The notes under the pieces were generated by a model. That model did not search any database, was not told the DNA's origin, and saw only the letters and a list, made by a program, of their open reading frames with translations. Of a stretch of DNA of 64,000 nucleotides, positions 9,927 through 17,858 are shown piece by piece. Positions within the stretch are counted from its first letter, which is position 1. Each line of letters starts with the position of its first letter. A program made the translations under genes and the position numbers. Origin of the DNA: Aigarchaeota archaeon (GTDB taxonomy: Archaea > Thermoproteota > Nitrososphaeria_A > Caldarchaeales > Wolframiiraptoraceae); assembly GCA_025059205.1 (NCBI GenBank), contig JANXDS010000001.1:140014-204013 (forward strand), given 5' to 3'.

Positions 9927-10550
9927 CTACTTGAATACTTCTCCCGTTTTGTCAGCCCACATAACGAGATCAAGAGCTTCAGGACTCATGCCCAAATCCT
10001 TAGCGAATTGTACAAACTTCTTTTCAAGTTTAAGATATGTTCTTTTCGTTAAAGCTTTTGGTACCTCTTCTATAATCCCAACCTCTTTCATACCTCTTAG
10101 TATGTGCCTGTCCAAAATCGCTAATCCTTCATAACCGACGTTCCTCAAAAAATGACTCGCCTCTTTATAACCTAAGCCCTTTATGTTTTTAATAAGCCGC
10201 TCTCTTGCCTCAAAAGCATTTGACGGTAGGTTTTTCAACGATTTCAAATACGCTCTCGCGGCAACTATGTATCCGGCTTTAGACTCAGGAAATCGAACAC
10301 CGTTTTTCTTCAGTATCGCGGCTATATCATCTTTGTTGCCATTGAGTAGTAAATTTTTCGCTCTCATACTTGATATCGCTGCGTCCGCAGCCCTCGCTCT
10401 AGTCTGAGGGGTGCACAGACAAAAGCAAAGTTCAGCAAACACATCTTCATCGCTTTTTTGTAGCATGTCCTTAAATTCCTTAAGCCTCTCTTCGATCTCT
10501 TTACGTTTTTCTTCGTAGATCTTCAGATACCTGCTGACGGTGTCGTTCAT
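9927..10550 (-). CDS. ogg: 8-oxoguanine DNA glycosylase/AP lyase, Ogg2 type
   Basis: A 207-residue helix-hairpin-helix glycosylase. The HhH with catalytic lysine reads NIKGLGYKEASHFLRNVGY (about 126-144), and the catalytic Asp is in ILDRHILR. The N-terminal ELCFCLCTPQTRA segment and C-terminal LDLVMWADKTGEVFK also match the archaeal Ogg2 group (Methanocaldococcus jannaschii type). It removes oxidised guanine and nicks the abasic site. Its ATG overlaps the HerA stop, so it is read from the nurA-herA transcript, linking base excision repair to end resection. Confidence 0.9.
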   Translation of the reverse strand: MNDTVSRYLKIYEEKRKEIEERLKEFKDMLQKSDEDVFAELCFCLCTPQTRARAADAAISSMRAKNLLLNGNKDDIAAILKKNGVRFPESKAGYIVAARAYLKSLKNLPSNAFEARERLIKNIKGLGYKEASHFLRNVGYEGLAILDRHILRGMKEVGIIEEVPKALTKRTYLKLEKKFVQFAKDLGMSPEALDLVMWADKTGEVFK

Positions 10551-12037
10551 GCTATCTGCTCTTTCTCCAATTTCGGTATATGTAGTTGCCTATCAAAAAG
10601 CTCAAAAAATAACCTAGTTTTGCCCATAGTCTCCACATCCACTTCTCTAACCTTGACCACGACGGGTATATCCCTAACCAAGTAGCCTATAAGTAAGCAG
10701 TAGCGCGGAGGTAGCGATGCCGCTATGGTCTTCACACTTTCAGAATCTATGCGTGATGTCTTTGCTATTGCCTCTAAATCAGCTTCGTTAGTGAAATTAA
10801 AAAGGATTATGTTGTCCGCTTGTCTGTATGTCGTTTCAGGTATCGAATCGGGTTGGTTTGTCACGAATATTGGTGATAGACCCAAGTGTCTCATTCTTGT
10901 AATCACATCGTCCCAGTAGGTGTCCCTTAAGTAAAGATGCGCCTCCTCGGCCACGAGAAATATAGGAGGTAACCTCCTTGCCTGCAGTAATTCGGTGAGC
11001 TTGCTAAGTAAGTATTCAACAACCATTCTCCTTGTCGAGGGCAGTAGGTCTCTGAGGTTTATCACGAGCATTTTACCACCGGCACGCTTGACGACTTCTT
11101 CAAAAGATATTACGCACCCTTCCTCATCTGTAATTATGCCCGTGGCCTCTATGGCCATGAGCCTACTCATTAACGCCTCCTTTACAGATTCGTGTAACTG
11201 CGTCCTTTGAATAACTTCTATCAAATCTCTGAGAGTAACTTTGCCCTTATTCTTCTTTATAGCATTCCATATCCTAAAGAATTCCCGACTACTGCTTGAT
11301 GGTGTATCGTAGACATGGATTAATATGTCCATAAAAGTTCTGAGACCGACGTCTTCAGTACTGACCCTGAAATTCCTGCCGGGCTCCAGCACTTCGTGCC
11401 GGAGAGCTATGTTGCTCTGACTTCCATCAACTCTCCTCTTAAGATTTACATACTCTCCGTTAATATCGAGCACTATAACCAAGGCCCCATACTCAACCAG
11501 TGTGGTTGATATCAGTTTCGTTATGTGGGACTTTCCAGTTTCTTTCTTGCCGGTTATTATAGTAAGTCTGCCGTCGAAGGATTCCGCGTCAACCCAGAAA
11601 TCCTCTTCTCCTACCATTCCGATATGGATTTTTCGCTTACCAGACAGCTTCATTATGCTCCTCAGTAAGTCGGCTTTTGCGACAGAGATGCTTGACTTAA
11701 ATCTTGAAGGAAGCCATGAGCTATTGTGTACAGTTCTATTCCCTTCAACGACGCACCTTATCTTACATCTTATAATTCTTGCCTCCTTTATCATCATGGT
11801 CAGCGAGCCTGCGTCAAACGGATCGAATATGTTTTCATGGTTCACGATTTCTAAAGAAACCTCTCGTAACATGTCTTCTAGTATACCGGGGATATCGGCA
11901 TAGTTTACGTCTATCACCTGAACAAGCATAAACTTGTCCCCTTCGCTTACTAGAAGATATTGGCCCTTCTCGACCACAACTTCTTGGGGAAATGCCAATA
12001 TATCTAACGTATCCCTTTGCTTGGAGAAAATCTTCAT
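10547..12037 (-). CDS. herA: HerA bipolar DNA helicase/translocase
   Basis: A 496-residue HerA/FtsK-superfamily ATPase. A beta-rich HAS-barrel (1-130) precedes the P-loop GKKETGKS (163-170). The Walker B region is PPIFLVAEEAHL, followed by a sensor (ILFNFTNEADL) and an arginine-rich C-terminus. Hexameric HerA works with NurA to resect double-strand breaks. The gene starts two bases after the nurA stop and overlaps the ogg start. Mre11 and Rad50 genes, often adjacent in archaea, are not in this window. Confidence 0.93.
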   Translation of the reverse strand: MKIFSKQRDTLDILAFPQEVVVEKGQYLLVSEGDKFMLVQVIDVNYADIPGILEDMLREVSLEIVNHENIFDPFDAGSLTMMIKEARIIRCKIRCVVEGNRTVHNSSWLPSRFKSSISVAKADLLRSIMKLSGKRKIHIGMVGEEDFWVDAESFDGRLTIITGKKETGKSHITKLISTTLVEYGALVIVLDINGEYVNLKRRVDGSQSNIALRHEVLEPGRNFRVSTEDVGLRTFMDILIHVYDTPSSSSREFFRIWNAIKKNKGKVTLRDLIEVIQRTQLHESVKEALMSRLMAIEATGIITDEEGCVISFEEVVKRAGGKMLVINLRDLLPSTRRMVVEYLLSKLTELLQARRLPPIFLVAEEAHLYLRDTYWDDVITRMRHLGLSPIFVTNQPDSIPETTYRQADNIILFNFTNEADLEAIAKTSRIDSESVKTIAASLPPRYCLLIGYLVRDIPVVVKVREVDVETMGKTRLFFELFDRQLHIPKLEKEQIA

Positions 12038-12039
12038 AC

Positions 12040-13089
12040 CTAATGACCATCCAACGGATTAAAAAGACTGCTTCTCACATCACACATTCCGAAAACGTCT
12101 ATGTTAAATTGTTGTTTCAGCAGCTTTTGCAACGCTAACACGTCTAACTTATTAAACGTACAGTAATTATGGGCTAACAGTAACGTCTCCGGATAGCCGT
12201 ATATCAGAGCATCGCTGCTGAGGAGGTTACCGATCGCATACAAGACATCATCTATTTCTCTTTCACTCACATCGAGCCTGTAAGGAAAGAAGATTCTGGA
12301 TAAATGGGATACGAGTATCCTACCGAGCTTATGGACCTTATTGGATGAGCATACGGCATCGCTTACGTCAATTACGCATGGGGGGTCTAGGTCTGGTACT
12401 AGCGACGTTATCCTAGTTCCCAGATAAGACAAACGTGTGGATTTCGAAAATGCAAGCACTACGTTGCCGTTTCTTTTAGCTTCGTTAAGTGTCTCACGTG
12501 TCAGCTGTAAAGAGTTATCCGCTGGACCAGCAGTCAGCGAACCGTCAAAAAGTAGTATCGAATCAGAAAACGTCGACGCTAACGAACGCTGGAGCCATTT
12601 TTCGAGCAGAGTACTGATGCTTCTATATATTGTCTCAAAGTTTTCGCTAAGCGGTTGACCGTCCGCGAGTTCTGACATAAAGGTGAATAAAGGTAAGTTA
12701 TCGTCAAAAGATACAAAAAAGATGATGGGGCCTATTATCCAAGACTCGATACCCCCAGATCTTTTTCTTCTTATCACGGAACCCCTCAGAGCGGCGAGAT
12801 AACCAAAAGGACCGTCGGCCAACCTTATGACTGAGGTATCGCAGGCAACCACGTCGCACACCTTACCAGAAGGTTTCAGTTTGTAAGTCCTAACTGAAGG
12901 TATTTTGTCCAAGTCTAAGATAACATCATGGCCAATATGGTGTCCAAACTCATCAATACTGACGATGGGTAAAGTTTTCCTTAGGTTCTCCATAGAACCT
13001 ATTCCTCTCTTAGAAAATGCTTTAAATACTTCTAAAAAGTTCTCAATAACGGGGGTCTCAGTGTCTATGAACGTGCTCATCCGCTCCAC
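12040..13089 (-). CDS. nurA: NurA 5'-3' nuclease
   Basis: 349 residues in the NurA family. The first acidic metal site is VVACDTSVIRLADGPFGYLAALRG near residues 80-103 (Asp in CDTS), the second is ILLFDGSL near 183, and a late His/Asp region follows. NurA digests DNA ends as a dimer docked on HerA. GTG 13089 gives a leaderless mRNA with the TATA element at 13116-13127; ATG 13080, preceded by GGTGGAG, is the alternative start. The gene heads a minus-strand series nurA-herA-ogg-NSUN-PUA. Confidence 0.88.
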   Translation of the reverse strand: MERMSTFIDTETPVIENFLEVFKAFSKRGIGSMENLRKTLPIVSIDEFGHHIGHDVILDLDKIPSVRTYKLKPSGKVCDVVACDTSVIRLADGPFGYLAALRGSVIRRKRSGGIESWIIGPIIFFVSFDDNLPLFTFMSELADGQPLSENFETIYRSISTLLEKWLQRSLASTFSDSILLFDGSLTAGPADNSLQLTRETLNEAKRNGNVVLAFSKSTRLSYLGTRITSLVPDLDPPCVIDVSDAVCSSNKVHKLGRILVSHLSRIFFPYRLDVSEREIDDVLYAIGNLLSSDALIYGYPETLLLAHNYCTFNKLDVLALQKLLKQQFNIDVFGMCDVRSSLFNPLDGH

Positions 13090-13115: not shown

Positions 13116-13127
13116 CTTATAAATTTT
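13116..13127. promoter_or_regulatory. Shared near-palindromic TATA element between nurA and a wHTH gene
   Basis: CTTATAAATTTT reads as a usable TATA box on both strands. It is 29 bases from ATG 13150 on the plus strand and 32 bases from GTG 13089 on the minus strand. No other TATA candidate exists in this 60-base gap. Confidence 0.5.
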
Positions 13128-13149
13128 GCGCAATTTGGGTAATTTGATC

Positions 13150-13578
13150 ATGTCGCAAGAAAGAATAAAAGTCAAGATAACGATAGGGAAGGCGAACGTG
13201 GAGATAGAGGCACCTCCCGAACTGCTCGAGAAGTCTGTAAGGGACGTTATGGCAGCTCTTGGTGTTTCGGAGACATTAGAACCCGAATCTGAACCCCAAA
13301 AGCGTACAAGGTCCGTCGAGACATCCACGTGTAGGAGTTTGGTGGAAAGCATGCTTAACGAAGGTTGGTTTTCCACACCTAGACCACTCTCGGAAGTCGT
13401 GGCGGAATTGGCCAGGAGGGGGCACCATTACGACCCGACCGCCGTAGCTCACGTCCTGCTGGACATGGTAAGGGAAGGCAGCCTAGTTAGATTAGGCCGT
13501 CCTAGAAGGTACCTATACTTAGCACACTCGACAACGGCGGCGAAGTTAGAGGCCGAAGAAAGCGGGTCTAAAAACTAA
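13150..13578 (+). CDS. Small protein with N-terminal beta domain and C-terminal winged helix (paralogue 1)
   Basis: 142 residues. The N-terminus (about 5-35, VKITIGKANVEIEAPPELLEKSV...) resembles the N-termini of the two downstream minus-strand proteins at 13582 and 14076. The C-terminal 75 residues form a probable winged helix (WFSTPRPLSEVVAELARRG, then LVRLGRPRRYLYLA as the wing). It is divergent from nurA across one shared TATA element and likely leaderless. It may be a regulator or an accessory factor of the NurA-HerA system; no direct evidence. Confidence 0.65.
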   Translation: MSQERIKVKITIGKANVEIEAPPELLEKSVRDVMAALGVSETLEPESEPQKRTRSVETSTCRSLVESMLNEGWFSTPRPLSEVVAELARRGHHYDPTAVAHVLLDMVREGSLVRLGRPRRYLYLAHSTTAAKLEAEESGSKN

Positions 13579-13581
13579 TAG

Positions 13582-14073
13582 TTATTTTTTCTCGATCTTG
13601 CCCTCTACAAACTCCTTAATGCCTAGCGTCGTTATAACGTAGTCTCCTCTATCTAGCCGCCTGAGGTAGCCCTTCTGCAGGAGTATGCTTAGCTTTCCCG
13701 ATATGGTCTTCTCAGACTTGACTATGGTTTTCGCGAGCTCAGACGCATTTATAGACGGCGACTCTACCATACCTAACCCATGCTCAATATGCCTCTTTAT
13801 ACACAGAAGCATTATCGCCTCGGAAACCGACAATGTATTTAGAGGTTTAAGCAGAAAGATTCCTTCTGATTGGTTGTATGCCAAGTATTCCTTTAGCTTT
13901 TCAATTAATTCTTGAATACTCACGGAGTAGGTTATCCTACTCGCAAGCGAGTAGGATGGTATTGCCTTCTCCATAAAGGATACGATGCTTCTATAAACAT
14001 CATCGGGCCTCCCCTCAAAATCTGCCCGAACATCCTTGTACTGTACCGAGACCCTCATAATGTCCTCGCCCAT
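13582..14073 (-). CDS. Small protein with N-terminal beta domain and C-terminal winged helix (paralogue 2)
   Basis: 163 residues from ATG 14073. The GAGGAGGT ribosome-binding site lies six bases before this ATG and is built from the last codons of the upstream paralogue. The N-terminal MRVSVQYKDVRADFEGRPDD segment aligns by eye with the same part of paralogues 1 and 3. The C-terminal part has an HTH (INASELAKTIVKSEKTIS) and a wing (YLRRLDRGDYVITTLG). It is convergent with paralogue 1, with three bases between the stops. DNA binding is inferred. Confidence 0.65.
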   Translation of the reverse strand: MGEDIMRVSVQYKDVRADFEGRPDDVYRSIVSFMEKAIPSYSLASRITYSVSIQELIEKLKEYLAYNQSEGIFLLKPLNTLSVSEAIMLLCIKRHIEHGLGMVESPSINASELAKTIVKSEKTISGKLSILLQKGYLRRLDRGDYVITTLGIKEFVEGKIEKK

Positions 14074-14075
14074 GA

Positions 14076-14537
14076 TCATACCTCCTCTGTCAACACGTTG
14101 ACGGCAGATGTATTAAAAACATATCTTCCACCGTCAACCTTTATAACGAGACCTAACTTTCTCATTTCGCTTAGCCTAGCTCTAGTAACCCTTTCTTCTA
14201 AACCTGTGGCTATTGAGACCTCCTTAGGAGATAATGCGTCGTTCTCCAAAAGACCAAGCGCCTTGCCCACGTATGCGGCTGCAAGACATAGTAGTATTTT
14301 TTTCTTTGCCTCCACCTGGGCTGAGATGACGATCCTGCCGTTTACTATCTGAGCTTTCCCCGAAAGTAAGGACAGTATGTGAGAAACATCGACAGTTCCT
14401 AGAAACTTCTTTACTATCGAAATAGATGGATAAAGTTCTGAAAGATACTTGTTAACACTCATCCATACTTCCTCATAATTCCCGTCGAACTCGACGGAGA
14501 CATCATCATGTTGTATTTTTATCTTAAGGTTCTTCAC
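14076..14537 (-). CDS. Small protein with N-terminal beta domain and C-terminal winged helix (paralogue 3)
   Basis: About 153 residues from GTG 14537 (TTG 14546 is also possible). The longer frame from TTG 14600 is unlikely because it would translate through the TATA box at 14584-14594. The N-terminal KIKIQHDDVSVEFDGNYEEV segment matches paralogues 1 and 2. The C-terminus holds an HTH (LSPKEVSIATGLEERVTRA) and a wing (LGLVIKVDGGRYVF). It overlaps paralogue 2 by the ATGA arrangement, so the two are coupled and may form a heteromer. Confidence 0.65.
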   Translation of the reverse strand: MKNLKIKIQHDDVSVEFDGNYEEVWMSVNKYLSELYPSISIVKKFLGTVDVSHILSLLSGKAQIVNGRIVISAQVEAKKKILLCLAAAYVGKALGLLENDALSPKEVSIATGLEERVTRARLSEMRKLGLVIKVDGGRYVFNTSAVNVLTEEV

Positions 14538-14601
14538 ATTTTGCAAAGTCTTTAACCAATACAAATAGCAAGAAATACAAACATTAAAATTTATCGCCAA
14601 A

Positions 14602-16515
14602 TTATCTGTTAGACCCCTCGGATTTGAGCGCCTGAATTGCCTTTAGCAACATGCTATTTAGGAGTGCTCCATCAACCCTGCCCCTGTAATCTTTCATAAG
14701 TTCGCCCATCAGTTTAGCTGTGGCTCTCCTCTCATCAGTAAAAATTTCTTGCCTATGCTCTTTGACGAGTGCCCTAATCCTGTCCTCCACCTCTGAAATT
14801 GAAGGTGACCAGAGACCGAGCTCGTCTATAGCCTTGTCCACGTCCTGTTCTTTCTGCGCTACAGCTGTTAAGACATCCTTAGCAGCCTCTTTCGCGACCT
14901 TGCCGCATGACACGAGCTCAAAGAACCTCATCATATGTGTTTTAGTTATCTTCTCGACGTTGATTCCTTCCCTCCTTAAACTTCTGAGCAATTCCGTTAA
15001 CGTGGAAGCCACTACAGTAGGAAGTGCCCCAGTTTTCGATACGATTTCTTCAAAATCTTCAACCGTATCATGGTCTATAAGATCGTTTGCAAGTTGTTTG
15101 CTAAGCCCATACTTTTCCATGAGTTGTTGAGCTATCACGTCTAAAGTTGGTGGAAGTCTTGCCTTTAGATGCTCTATATATTCTTGTGAGATTATGATCG
15201 GTGGTATGTCGGTTTCTGGATACATTCTCGCCGAACCTGGTCTTGGTCTCATGTAAAAGGTCGTCCCATCAGGTCTCGCTGCCCTAGTTTCTTCGGGTAC
15301 TCCATCTAAGGCCTCAGCTGCTCTTTCTTTAACAACATCCATTGCATACAATGCCTTGTCTCTTTCAGCTGCCACTATTATAACGGCGTCCAGTTCTCCA
15401 GCACCAACAGCATCCCTAAGAGCCTTAACCTCTTCAACTGTTATTCCGTAGTTAGGGAGCTCATCAGTATGGAATATCCCTTCCACCTCGCTCCATGCCC
15501 TAACTCTTCCTGCGATCTCCGCACCAAGCCTTATGCCGGGCGAAGGTTGTAGGCCCAAAAGTCCAGCAAATCCCCTTAATTTTAATGCATACACGACACC
15601 ACCGGCCTCGAGTTGTCTTTTGATTATCTTGCTGGACGTTTTAGAGAATATGTGAGTGACCTCAACGGGGTTTGTATTCCAAATATCTTCCTTCTTAACA
15701 TTGCGTTTCAGCAATTCCTCTCTTATTCGTAAAAGATGCAGCTGTCGCTTAACCTCATTTTCTACGACCTTCTGAATAAGCTCAAGCTCTTGGACACCTT
15801 TTATCTCGACGGGCACTCCACCCTTAATTGATATGTTTAAGTCCTGCCTGACAGTCCCTATACCTCTCTTAACTTTTCCTGTCGCTCTTAAGATCCTTCC
15901 TATGGCATAAGCTACCTCCACCGCTTCTCCGGGCGATTCGATGACTGGCTCCGTCGAGACCTCTATCAACGGTATACCAAGTCTTGATAGGTCGTAATGA
16001 ACTTCGTCTTTTCCGACCTCTATTATCCTGGCAGCATCCTCTTCGAGAGTTATCGTCTGTATAGGTATGGTTTTATTCTTTACCCTTACTTGCCCCCCTA
16101 TGCCGATTATACATGTACGCTGAAACCCCGTCGTGTTAGAACCATCTATAACTATCTTGCGCATTACATGAACCTCATCAACCGGTTTTGAGTCGAGTAA
16201 AAGGGCGACTATTAGAGCCACCTCAAGAGCTTCGGGATTCAAGCTATGCGGCGGCTCTTCGTCCATTTCGACTAAACAAACATTCTTAGGGTTTGCATGG
16301 TAAACTATCGTCTTTCGTTTTCTTGATTCGAAGACCGCTGCCGCGTCTACCGTACCCAGTTCGCTCTGAACCTCTCTCAACTTTCTGATGAAGATTATGC
16401 TCTCACCGTCTTCGGTACCTTCTGTCGGACAATCGCAAAATAACTTTCTCTTTGTATCCAACTGCCTATGTATCTCCAGACCGACCTTTAACCCTATGCT
16501 GGAATAATCCTCCAT
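14602..16515 (-). CDS. gatE: Glutamyl-tRNA(Gln) amidotransferase subunit E
   Basis: GatE is the kinase/amidotransferase half of the archaeal GatDE complex, which converts Glu-tRNA(Gln) to Gln-tRNA(Gln). The N-terminus GLKVGLEIHRQL is the GatB/E hallmark. An AspRS-like GAD insertion lies at about 290-400, and the tail is a YqeY-like tRNA-binding helix bundle. About 637 residues, typical length. I chose ATG 16515 because it gives the family N-terminus; GTG 16524 overlaps the gatD stop. The start lies only a few bases from the end of gatD, so the two form one operon. Confidence 0.95.
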   Translation of the reverse strand: MEDYSSIGLKVGLEIHRQLDTKRKLFCDCPTEGTEDGESIIFIRKLREVQSELGTVDAAAVFESRKRKTIVYHANPKNVCLVEMDEEPPHSLNPEALEVALIVALLLDSKPVDEVHVMRKIVIDGSNTTGFQRTCIIGIGGQVRVKNKTIPIQTITLEEDAARIIEVGKDEVHYDLSRLGIPLIEVSTEPVIESPGEAVEVAYAIGRILRATGKVKRGIGTVRQDLNISIKGGVPVEIKGVQELELIQKVVENEVKRQLHLLRIREELLKRNVKKEDIWNTNPVEVTHIFSKTSSKIIKRQLEAGGVVYALKLRGFAGLLGLQPSPGIRLGAEIAGRVRAWSEVEGIFHTDELPNYGITVEEVKALRDAVGAGELDAVIIVAAERDKALYAMDVVKERAAEALDGVPEETRAARPDGTTFYMRPRPGSARMYPETDIPPIIISQEYIEHLKARLPPTLDVIAQQLMEKYGLSKQLANDLIDHDTVEDFEEIVSKTGALPTVVASTLTELLRSLRREGINVEKITKTHMMRFFELVSCGKVAKEAAKDVLTAVAQKEQDVDKAIDELGLWSPSISEVEDRIRALVKEHRQEIFTDERRATAKLMGELMKDYRGRVDGALLNSMLLKAIQALKSEGSNR

Positions 16516-16520
16516 AATTA

Positions 16521-17858
16521 TCACAAACCCGTGTTAGGTAAGCTTCTTGAGTAAATCTCTCCAGCAATATTCGTCAGCATGATTCTTTTAATTTCCTCTA
16601 ATTCGGCATTTTCGCCAAGATTGCCTAACGTCCACATGAGCTTAACGAGTGCGACTTCGGATAGCATGTCATCAAGCGGAACGACACCTGCTTTTAGTAA
16701 ATCTCTACCTGTATCGTATACGTTCATGTTAACCCTTCCAAACTTACATTGAGACGTCATGCCTACAAATATGCGTCTTTCTATCAACTCCTTTATAACT
16801 GGTACCCAGTTTGAGGATACGTGTCCCAGCCCCGTCCCCTCTATTATAAAACCTCTTATGCCCTTGTCGGCTAGAATGCTTAGTATATCAGGTTTCATGG
16901 AGGGAAAGAACTTGATAAGGAATGCTCTTTCATCAAACTTTGGTTTATAGACATAATTATTGGAGCCTCTTGGATTTAGATCATCAATCATGACTCTGAG
17001 CTCGCCATTCTGATAGTAAGCAATTGGTCCCGAGTTTACCGAGCGGAAAGCATCCCTGCTGCTTGTATGCAGCTTAACGACCCTAGTCCCCCTATGTAGG
17101 GCTATAACATCATCAGAGTGCCATTTATGCATAGCAACGACAACCTCACCGAAAGGTGCCTTAGCTGCCGTCGCGACGGCTGCAATCAGGTTGGTCGCGG
17201 CATCACTTGAAGGTCTGTCGGAAGACCTTTGTGCACCGACGAGAATTATCGGAATAGGTGGTTTCTGAAGAGCGAAGCTAAGCGCCGCTGCTGTATATCC
17301 CATAGTATCTGTACCGTGCGTTAAAACCACACCATCCATACCTTTACGAATGTGCCGGTCTACAGCCTCGGCCATCCCGACCCAATGCTGAACCTGAACG
17401 TTCTCGCTAAACACACTATATAGCACCTCGGTATCTATCTTTGCGATTTCTGCAAGTTCGGGAACTATCGCTAAAAGATCATCAGCGTCTAAGGCAGGTC
17501 TAACAGCACCGGTCCTGTATTCTATCCTGCTAGCTATCGTGCCGCCTGTACTGATTATGATAACGTTTGGAAGATTGCCAAGGATTTGTGGTTTGGGTGG
17601 TCGCGTAAACGTAGGCTTTGTTCCAGCAGAAATTTTAGATATGCTTGTATTTTCCGTCACTCTTATTCCTATGTTGTAACCGTTAGGTAGTTTCAGTGTT
17701 ATGTAGCTTGGGTCTGCCAACTCGTATCTGGCCATCAGAATACCTTGATACCTCCTGCCGTTTGATATCACTTCAACCTCATCTCCGATGCTTATGTTTT
17801 CCCGTTCTAGAAGTTTCCTTACAATACCTGAGTATCCTTGCAACTCTAATGCATTCAT
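16521..17858 (-). CDS. gatD: Glutamyl-tRNA(Gln) amidotransferase subunit D
   Basis: GatD is an L-asparaginase-like subunit that frees ammonia for GatE. The 445-residue product has an N-terminal beta-barrel (1-85), then STGGTIAS with the first catalytic Thr near 105 and THGTDTMGYT with the second Thr-Asp pair near 180, plus a catalytic Lys region further on. A CTTATAAG element just upstream (about 17879) is the likely promoter. Together with gatE it shows that this organism makes Gln-tRNA indirectly. Confidence 0.95.
   Translation of the reverse strand: MNALELQGYSGIVRKLLERENISIGDEVEVISNGRRYQGILMARYELADPSYITLKLPNGYNIGIRVTENTSISKISAGTKPTFTRPPKPQILGNLPNVIIISTGGTIASRIEYRTGAVRPALDADDLLAIVPELAEIAKIDTEVLYSVFSENVQVQHWVGMAEAVDRHIRKGMDGVVLTHGTDTMGYTAAALSFALQKPPIPIILVGAQRSSDRPSSDAATNLIAAVATAAKAPFGEVVVAMHKWHSDDVIALHRGTRVVKLHTSSRDAFRSVNSGPIAYYQNGELRVMIDDLNPRGSNNYVYKPKFDERAFLIKFFPSMKPDILSILADKGIRGFIIEGTGLGHVSSNWVPVIKELIERRIFVGMTSQCKFGRVNMNVYDTGRDLLKAGVVPLDDMLSEVALVKLMWTLGNLGENAELEEIKRIMLTNIAGEIYSRSLPNTGL

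Follow-up and report, generated by a model that had tools for sequence, protein, structure and literature searches.

We analyzed a cluster of small winged-helix (wHTH) genes in a draft genome of 1.19 Mb; among named organisms, its nearest kin are Candidatus Terraquivivens (Aigarchaeota). Coordinates refer to the window, the whole 64,000-nt stretch of DNA that was analyzed. The open reading frames of the three wHTH proteins to which the initial annotation had drawn attention, here termed A, B and C, were all present. On the minus strand the order is gatD (16521..17858), gatE (14602..16524), C (14076..14600) and B (13582..14079). A (13150..13578), encoded on the plus strand, converges on B, with 3 bp between their ends, and is divergent from nurA (12040..13089) and herA (10547..12037), which are again on the minus strand; a DNA-glycosylase-like gene (9927-10550) comes after nurA-herA. 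gatD is a context gene, and gatE is the upstream neighbour of C, an adjacency retained in some lineages only. The coupling of B and C by an ATGA overlap, also noticed at the outset, was seen at 14076-14079, and it is not retained in every congener.

Between A and nurA there is just one clear TATA box, TATAAAT at 13118..13124, which is apparently common to both genes, in agreement with the initial annotation. Directly downstream of it, on the plus strand, lies an operator-like element, TTGCGCAATTTGGGTAATTTGATCATG (13126..13152), in which three half-palindromic units of the WTGNNYAW type follow one another every 9 bp. The start candidates were ATG 13150 for A, with the in-frame TTG 13126 less likely, and GTG 13089 or ATG 13080 for nurA. 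For C, translation probably begins downstream of the listed TTG at 14600, near 14540, where relatives start.

Kinship and structure of the wHTH proteins

Protein A (142 aa) consists of an N-terminal beta-beta-alpha segment, a variable linker and a C-terminal wHTH with a near-invariant recognition-helix region (T97, A98, H101, L103, L104, D105, V107 and R108). B (about 161-165 aa) has a beta-beta-alpha segment followed by a long helix, a beta-hairpin and a wHTH, and its recognition-helix region was not near-invariant. C is an ancient paralogue of B; a search with B retrieved it from their own genome (E=1.6e-9, 19% identity), and the two are homologous over their whole length. Because BLAST found no similarity between A and B, profiles were needed for that comparison. 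HHalign aligned 39 N-terminal columns of A in register with those of B/C, with a probability of 96.4 for the N-terminal parts and 93.2 at full length, whereas 200 column-permuted B profiles reached at most 19.6 and a reversed profile 1.8. The kinship of the three N-termini, suspected at first from a residue pattern, thus held in the profile comparison. Structure prediction agreed: the AlphaFold models of B (mean pLDDT 85; E8-14, E17-23, H25-39) and of A (mean pLDDT 75, with an N-terminus that is moderately confident only; E6-12, E15-21, H26-36) have the same N-terminal beta-beta-alpha order, and each has a C-terminal winged helix.

No curated family in Pfam, NCBIfam or PADLOC matched A, B or C above its own cut-off. 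Scores against the Pfam MarR/HTH families stayed below the gathering cut-offs (18.3 versus 24.6 for B, 17.1 versus 25 for A and 15.4 versus 27 for C), and PDB searches by sequence and by fold returned generic wHTH matches only, with no solved structure matching by fold at E<=0.001 (best E=3.5e-3 for B and 9.9e-3 for A). The wHTH of B is weakly similar to those of Csa3/CARF-wHTH regulators and of CooA/CRP, but the alignment is limited to this C-terminal part, and B carries neither a CARF nor a cyclic-nucleotide domain. A CARF reading was accordingly dropped, the N-terminus of B being beta-beta-alpha, as was a kleisin/kite-like (SMC partner) reading, for which a second wHTH is lacking.

In the tree, B of the window fell into a clade of 24 members (100/100) and C into one of 17 (97/94), and both of these clades extend over the order. 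A third paralogue formed a 31-member clade in other lineages. The expansion, which the initial annotation had taken to be local, is therefore ancient and not confined to this genome. In several relatives, gatE has next to it a fourth member of the group that shares this N-terminal segment. We also noted tandem wHTH genes of 125 and 134 aa at L192:2841-3629, beside a small heat-shock-like gene, whose kinship with B covers its C-terminal two thirds and which have no N-terminal segment.

The shared promoter of A and nurA

Alignment of the A-nurA intergenic regions gave TATAAATGTTGCKCAAnnTGnnCAAnATG, that is, the TATA box and then WTGNNCAW units at 9 bp. Conservation of the element TATAAATGTTGCKCAAnnTGnnCAA extends across Aigarchaeota, Bathyarchaeota and ammonia oxidisers, and the element is present in nearly all named loci that have both genes. 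Across the window and 46 named Aigarchaeota/Bathyarchaeota loci, TATA+TTG[CT][GT]CA had 44 matches on the A strand and one elsewhere. The expression TATAAATNTTGYKCA matched once in the 1.19-Mb genome, at the A-nurA promoter. When TATWAATNTTGYKCA was searched in 250 genomes, the A-nurA promoter was matched in most Caldarchaeales and in the ammonia-oxidiser-like genomes G211 and G236, with scattered background matches elsewhere; within Caldarchaeales nearly all matches were at this promoter. A fixed expression was matched in 37 of 48 divergent A-nurA loci versus none of 18 A-like genes in other positions. Among the 11 unmatched divergent loci, variants were recognized by eye in several (L081, L090, L091, L094) and none was clear in L082 and L087.

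The distance from the element to the start codon of A is 32, 33 or about 80-100 nt, depending on the lineage, which argues for conservation at the level of DNA and led us to reject a coding reading of the element as MLRN/MLRK N-terminal extensions of A. The element is kept without B in the sample search (G012, G014, G205), and with B/C elsewhere in the f5 lineages; since it persists without an adjacent B, it tracks A.

Loci that lack A have a different repeat, ACGTTACGT, at the promoter of a B-B-nurA-herA operon. In seven such loci ACGTT(W)ACGT gave 13 matches, all of them at most 130 bp upstream of the first B and none elsewhere. These repeats sit beside the TATA box of the operon (L089, L093, L169, L170, L173, L174, L175), and we regard them as a candidate for a second, different operator at the equivalent position. 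The two patterns were derived from aligned promoters and then tested on the same data, and are thus partly post hoc, so that the weight rests on the specificity counts and not on the discovery of the patterns.

The arrangement at A, divergent from nurA with a conserved element in the shared promoter and a single match in the genome, is that of divergent autoregulators of the MarR, ArsR and PadR type, in which a small wHTH protein is divergent from its target operon and an operator, here a predicted one, overlaps the shared promoter. Unlike those proteins, A and B carry the extra N-terminal beta-beta-alpha segment and remain below the Pfam cut-offs.

Distribution of the genes and the accessory NurA-HerA pair

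The genome holds three nurA-herA pairs, of which the pair in the window is one. A nurA-herA-mre11-rad50 cluster, with mre11 and rad50 named from their sequences, lies on another contig (C5, L190), and neither gene was found beside nurA-herA in the window. The description of the neighbours as end-resection genes did not stand up in this respect, the canonical mre11-rad50-linked pair being elsewhere. Both proteins nevertheless belong to their families. NurA3 scored 24.7 bits against PF09376 (cut-off 21), and in 24 relatives D84, S86, D182, Y299 and H307 were invariant and E163 was at least 90% conserved, so that the catalytic-type residues (D84, E163, D182, Y299, H307) are kept in this divergent NurA-family nuclease. 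HerA3, a HerA/FtsK-type ATPase, scored 54.6 bits against PF01935 (cut-off 23.2), and its residues of Walker A (G168, K169, S170) and Walker B (E364, E365) are invariant. It reached none of the NCBIfam HerA equivalogs for repair, anti-phage functions or CedD (best 46.5 bits versus 800), and it is 19% identical to the mre11-linked HerA. The window pair thus shares with archaeal HerA-NurA of the mre11-rad50 operon the nuclease and ATPase families, the adjacency of herA and nurA and the catalytic and Walker residues; it differs in having no adjacent mre11 or rad50 and in its linkage to wHTH proteins, and by its sequence it is a separate, divergent subfamily.

A second accessory nurA-herA pair is present in the same genome on contig C4 (L191:10581-13967), with an endonuclease III-like gene beside it that parallels the glycosylase-like gene at the window pair. 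In PADLOC, HerA3 had a better match to mad8 (E=4.5e-18) than to the models of defence HerA.

The A/B family and the window-type NurA occurred together in 76 genomes of a 250-genome phylum sample, the A/B family alone in 11, NurA alone in 2 and neither in 161. These counts were assembled by hand from listed matches at thresholds of about 1e-15 to 1e-20, with the borderline genomes G050, G064 and G085 scored positive by position, and a Fisher test on them treats the genomes without correction for shared ancestry. B-family genes stood beside nurA-herA, meaning within four genes of nurA or herA, in 23 of 25 family-level lineages, versus near gatDE in only about 9; the proximity to nurA-herA thus recurs in other genomes. 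Wherever both genes were called in a named locus, A and nurA were divergently oriented, and the sample had 48 such loci, spread over 15 family-level lineages. In lineages without A (L089, L093, L169, L170, L173-L175), the genes B-B-(B)-nurA-herA all point the same way. An A-like gene at L182:8915-9403, in a Nitrosopumilus-like genome, lies away from any window-type nurA and is possibly an orphan of the module.

In at least 4 of the 11 genomes with only the A/B family, the NurA between A or B and herA belongs to a different subfamily (PF09376, E 1e-13 to 1e-23). In these loci (L091:11566-12714, L094:7349-8467, L167:7971-9152 and L168:11302-12369) it stands where the window-type NurA would otherwise be, with herA and the wHTH genes as neighbours. 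From this shared position, NurA appears to have been displaced in situ while herA and the wHTH genes were retained.

A proposed self-regulated module and the alternatives

We consider that the locus is probably a self-regulated third NurA-HerA module, with A as a putative dedicated autoregulator and B and C as ancient paralogous partners or co-regulators. A would bind the tandem WTGNNCAW units that directly adjoin the one TATA box of the A-nurA intergenic region. As the units lie between the TATA box and the transcription start of A, bound A should block its own transcription. Archaeal activators usually sit upstream of TATA/BRE, and since the units occupy that place when viewed toward nurA, binding should activate or tune nurA-herA. 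B, C and the further paralogues would probably work together with A or with NurA3-HerA3, either as co-regulators or as subunits that bind DNA, and the common beta-beta-alpha segment may serve for pairing. Recognition of the element by A, the direction of control, the pairing of the proteins and the kind of DNA that the module would process are inferred. Of the undescribed partner or regulator of NurA-HerA envisaged at the outset, the regulator half is the better supported, and it is so for A, because the operator-like element in the A/nurA promoter is deeply conserved. The role of B and C is less certain than that of A because of their adjacency to gatE in some lineages and their distance from nurA-herA in others.

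It stands to reason to ask whether A, B and C are instead structural subunits of a NurA3-HerA3 complex, acting as DNA-end or site-specific adaptors, with the element as a loading or recognition site. Co-directional B-B-nurA-herA operons in A-less lineages, the retention of the wHTH genes when NurA was exchanged, and the ancient, separately maintained paralogues, which suggest non-redundant parts, would fit such a complex. However, the element occurs once per genome and is always fixed beside the TATA box, as an operator should be and a genome-wide loading site should not, and we hold this explanation to be unlikely. It is similarly doubtful that B and C control unrelated targets as ordinary transcription factors and were kept near gatDE and nurA-herA through gene-order conservation, with only A functionally linked. 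Their position next to gatE here and in some other lineages, and far from nurA-herA in the f5 lineages, is consistent with that idea, but B-family genes are beside nurA-herA in far more lineages than beside gatDE, the A/B family co-occurs with NurA3 across the phylum, and B-type genes head the nurA-herA operons where A is absent.

As to function, the module might be an anti-virus or DNA-uptake system in which the wHTH regulators restrain a potentially toxic nuclease-translocase. HerA3 weakly matches defence HerA and mad8 models, and tight self-regulation of a nuclease recalls the control of restriction systems. Unlike mobile defence loci, however, the module is inherited vertically, in one copy and in a fixed chromosomal neighbourhood over class-level distance; other defence genes are absent nearby, and NurA, A and C have no strong match to a defence model. 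We therefore think a defence or uptake system quite improbable, and because of the vertical, single-copy inheritance we favour a role in repair or maintenance. A broader version of the proposal, to which we give only tentative credence, is that of a class-spanning accessory NurA-HerA machine whose wHTH set doubles as ancient single-site-operator regulators and DNA-recognition subunits, and whose NurA was swapped in several lineages.

HerA-NurA has been treated as a resection machine linked to Mre11-Rad50, with its activation and regulation called unresolved (PMC7690668, PMC12977600). A known transcriptional control of herA-nurA, that of the Sulfolobales herA operon by TFB3, is cited in PMC9905601. 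TFB3 is a TFB paralogue that controls several damage-response operons, whereas here a dedicated wHTH protein and a single promoter element would be involved. In the literature on HerA/NurA with wHTH proteins, Aigarchaeota or autoregulation, a scope outside which many subscription papers fell, we found no description of the wHTH proteins, the element or the module, and the conserved DNA element in the promoter shared by A and nurA is new here.

An extra NurA-HerA pair, separate from the Mre11-Rad50 operon, is present in many archaea, and how HerA-NurA is directed to DNA and restrained on it is poorly understood. The locus names candidate regulators or partners together with a precise DNA site, and cultivable relatives, the ammonia oxidisers, may carry genes of the module. 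For a regulatory site in archaea, an operator that can still be recognised in Aigarchaeota, Bathyarchaeota and ammonia oxidisers alike would be of unusual age.
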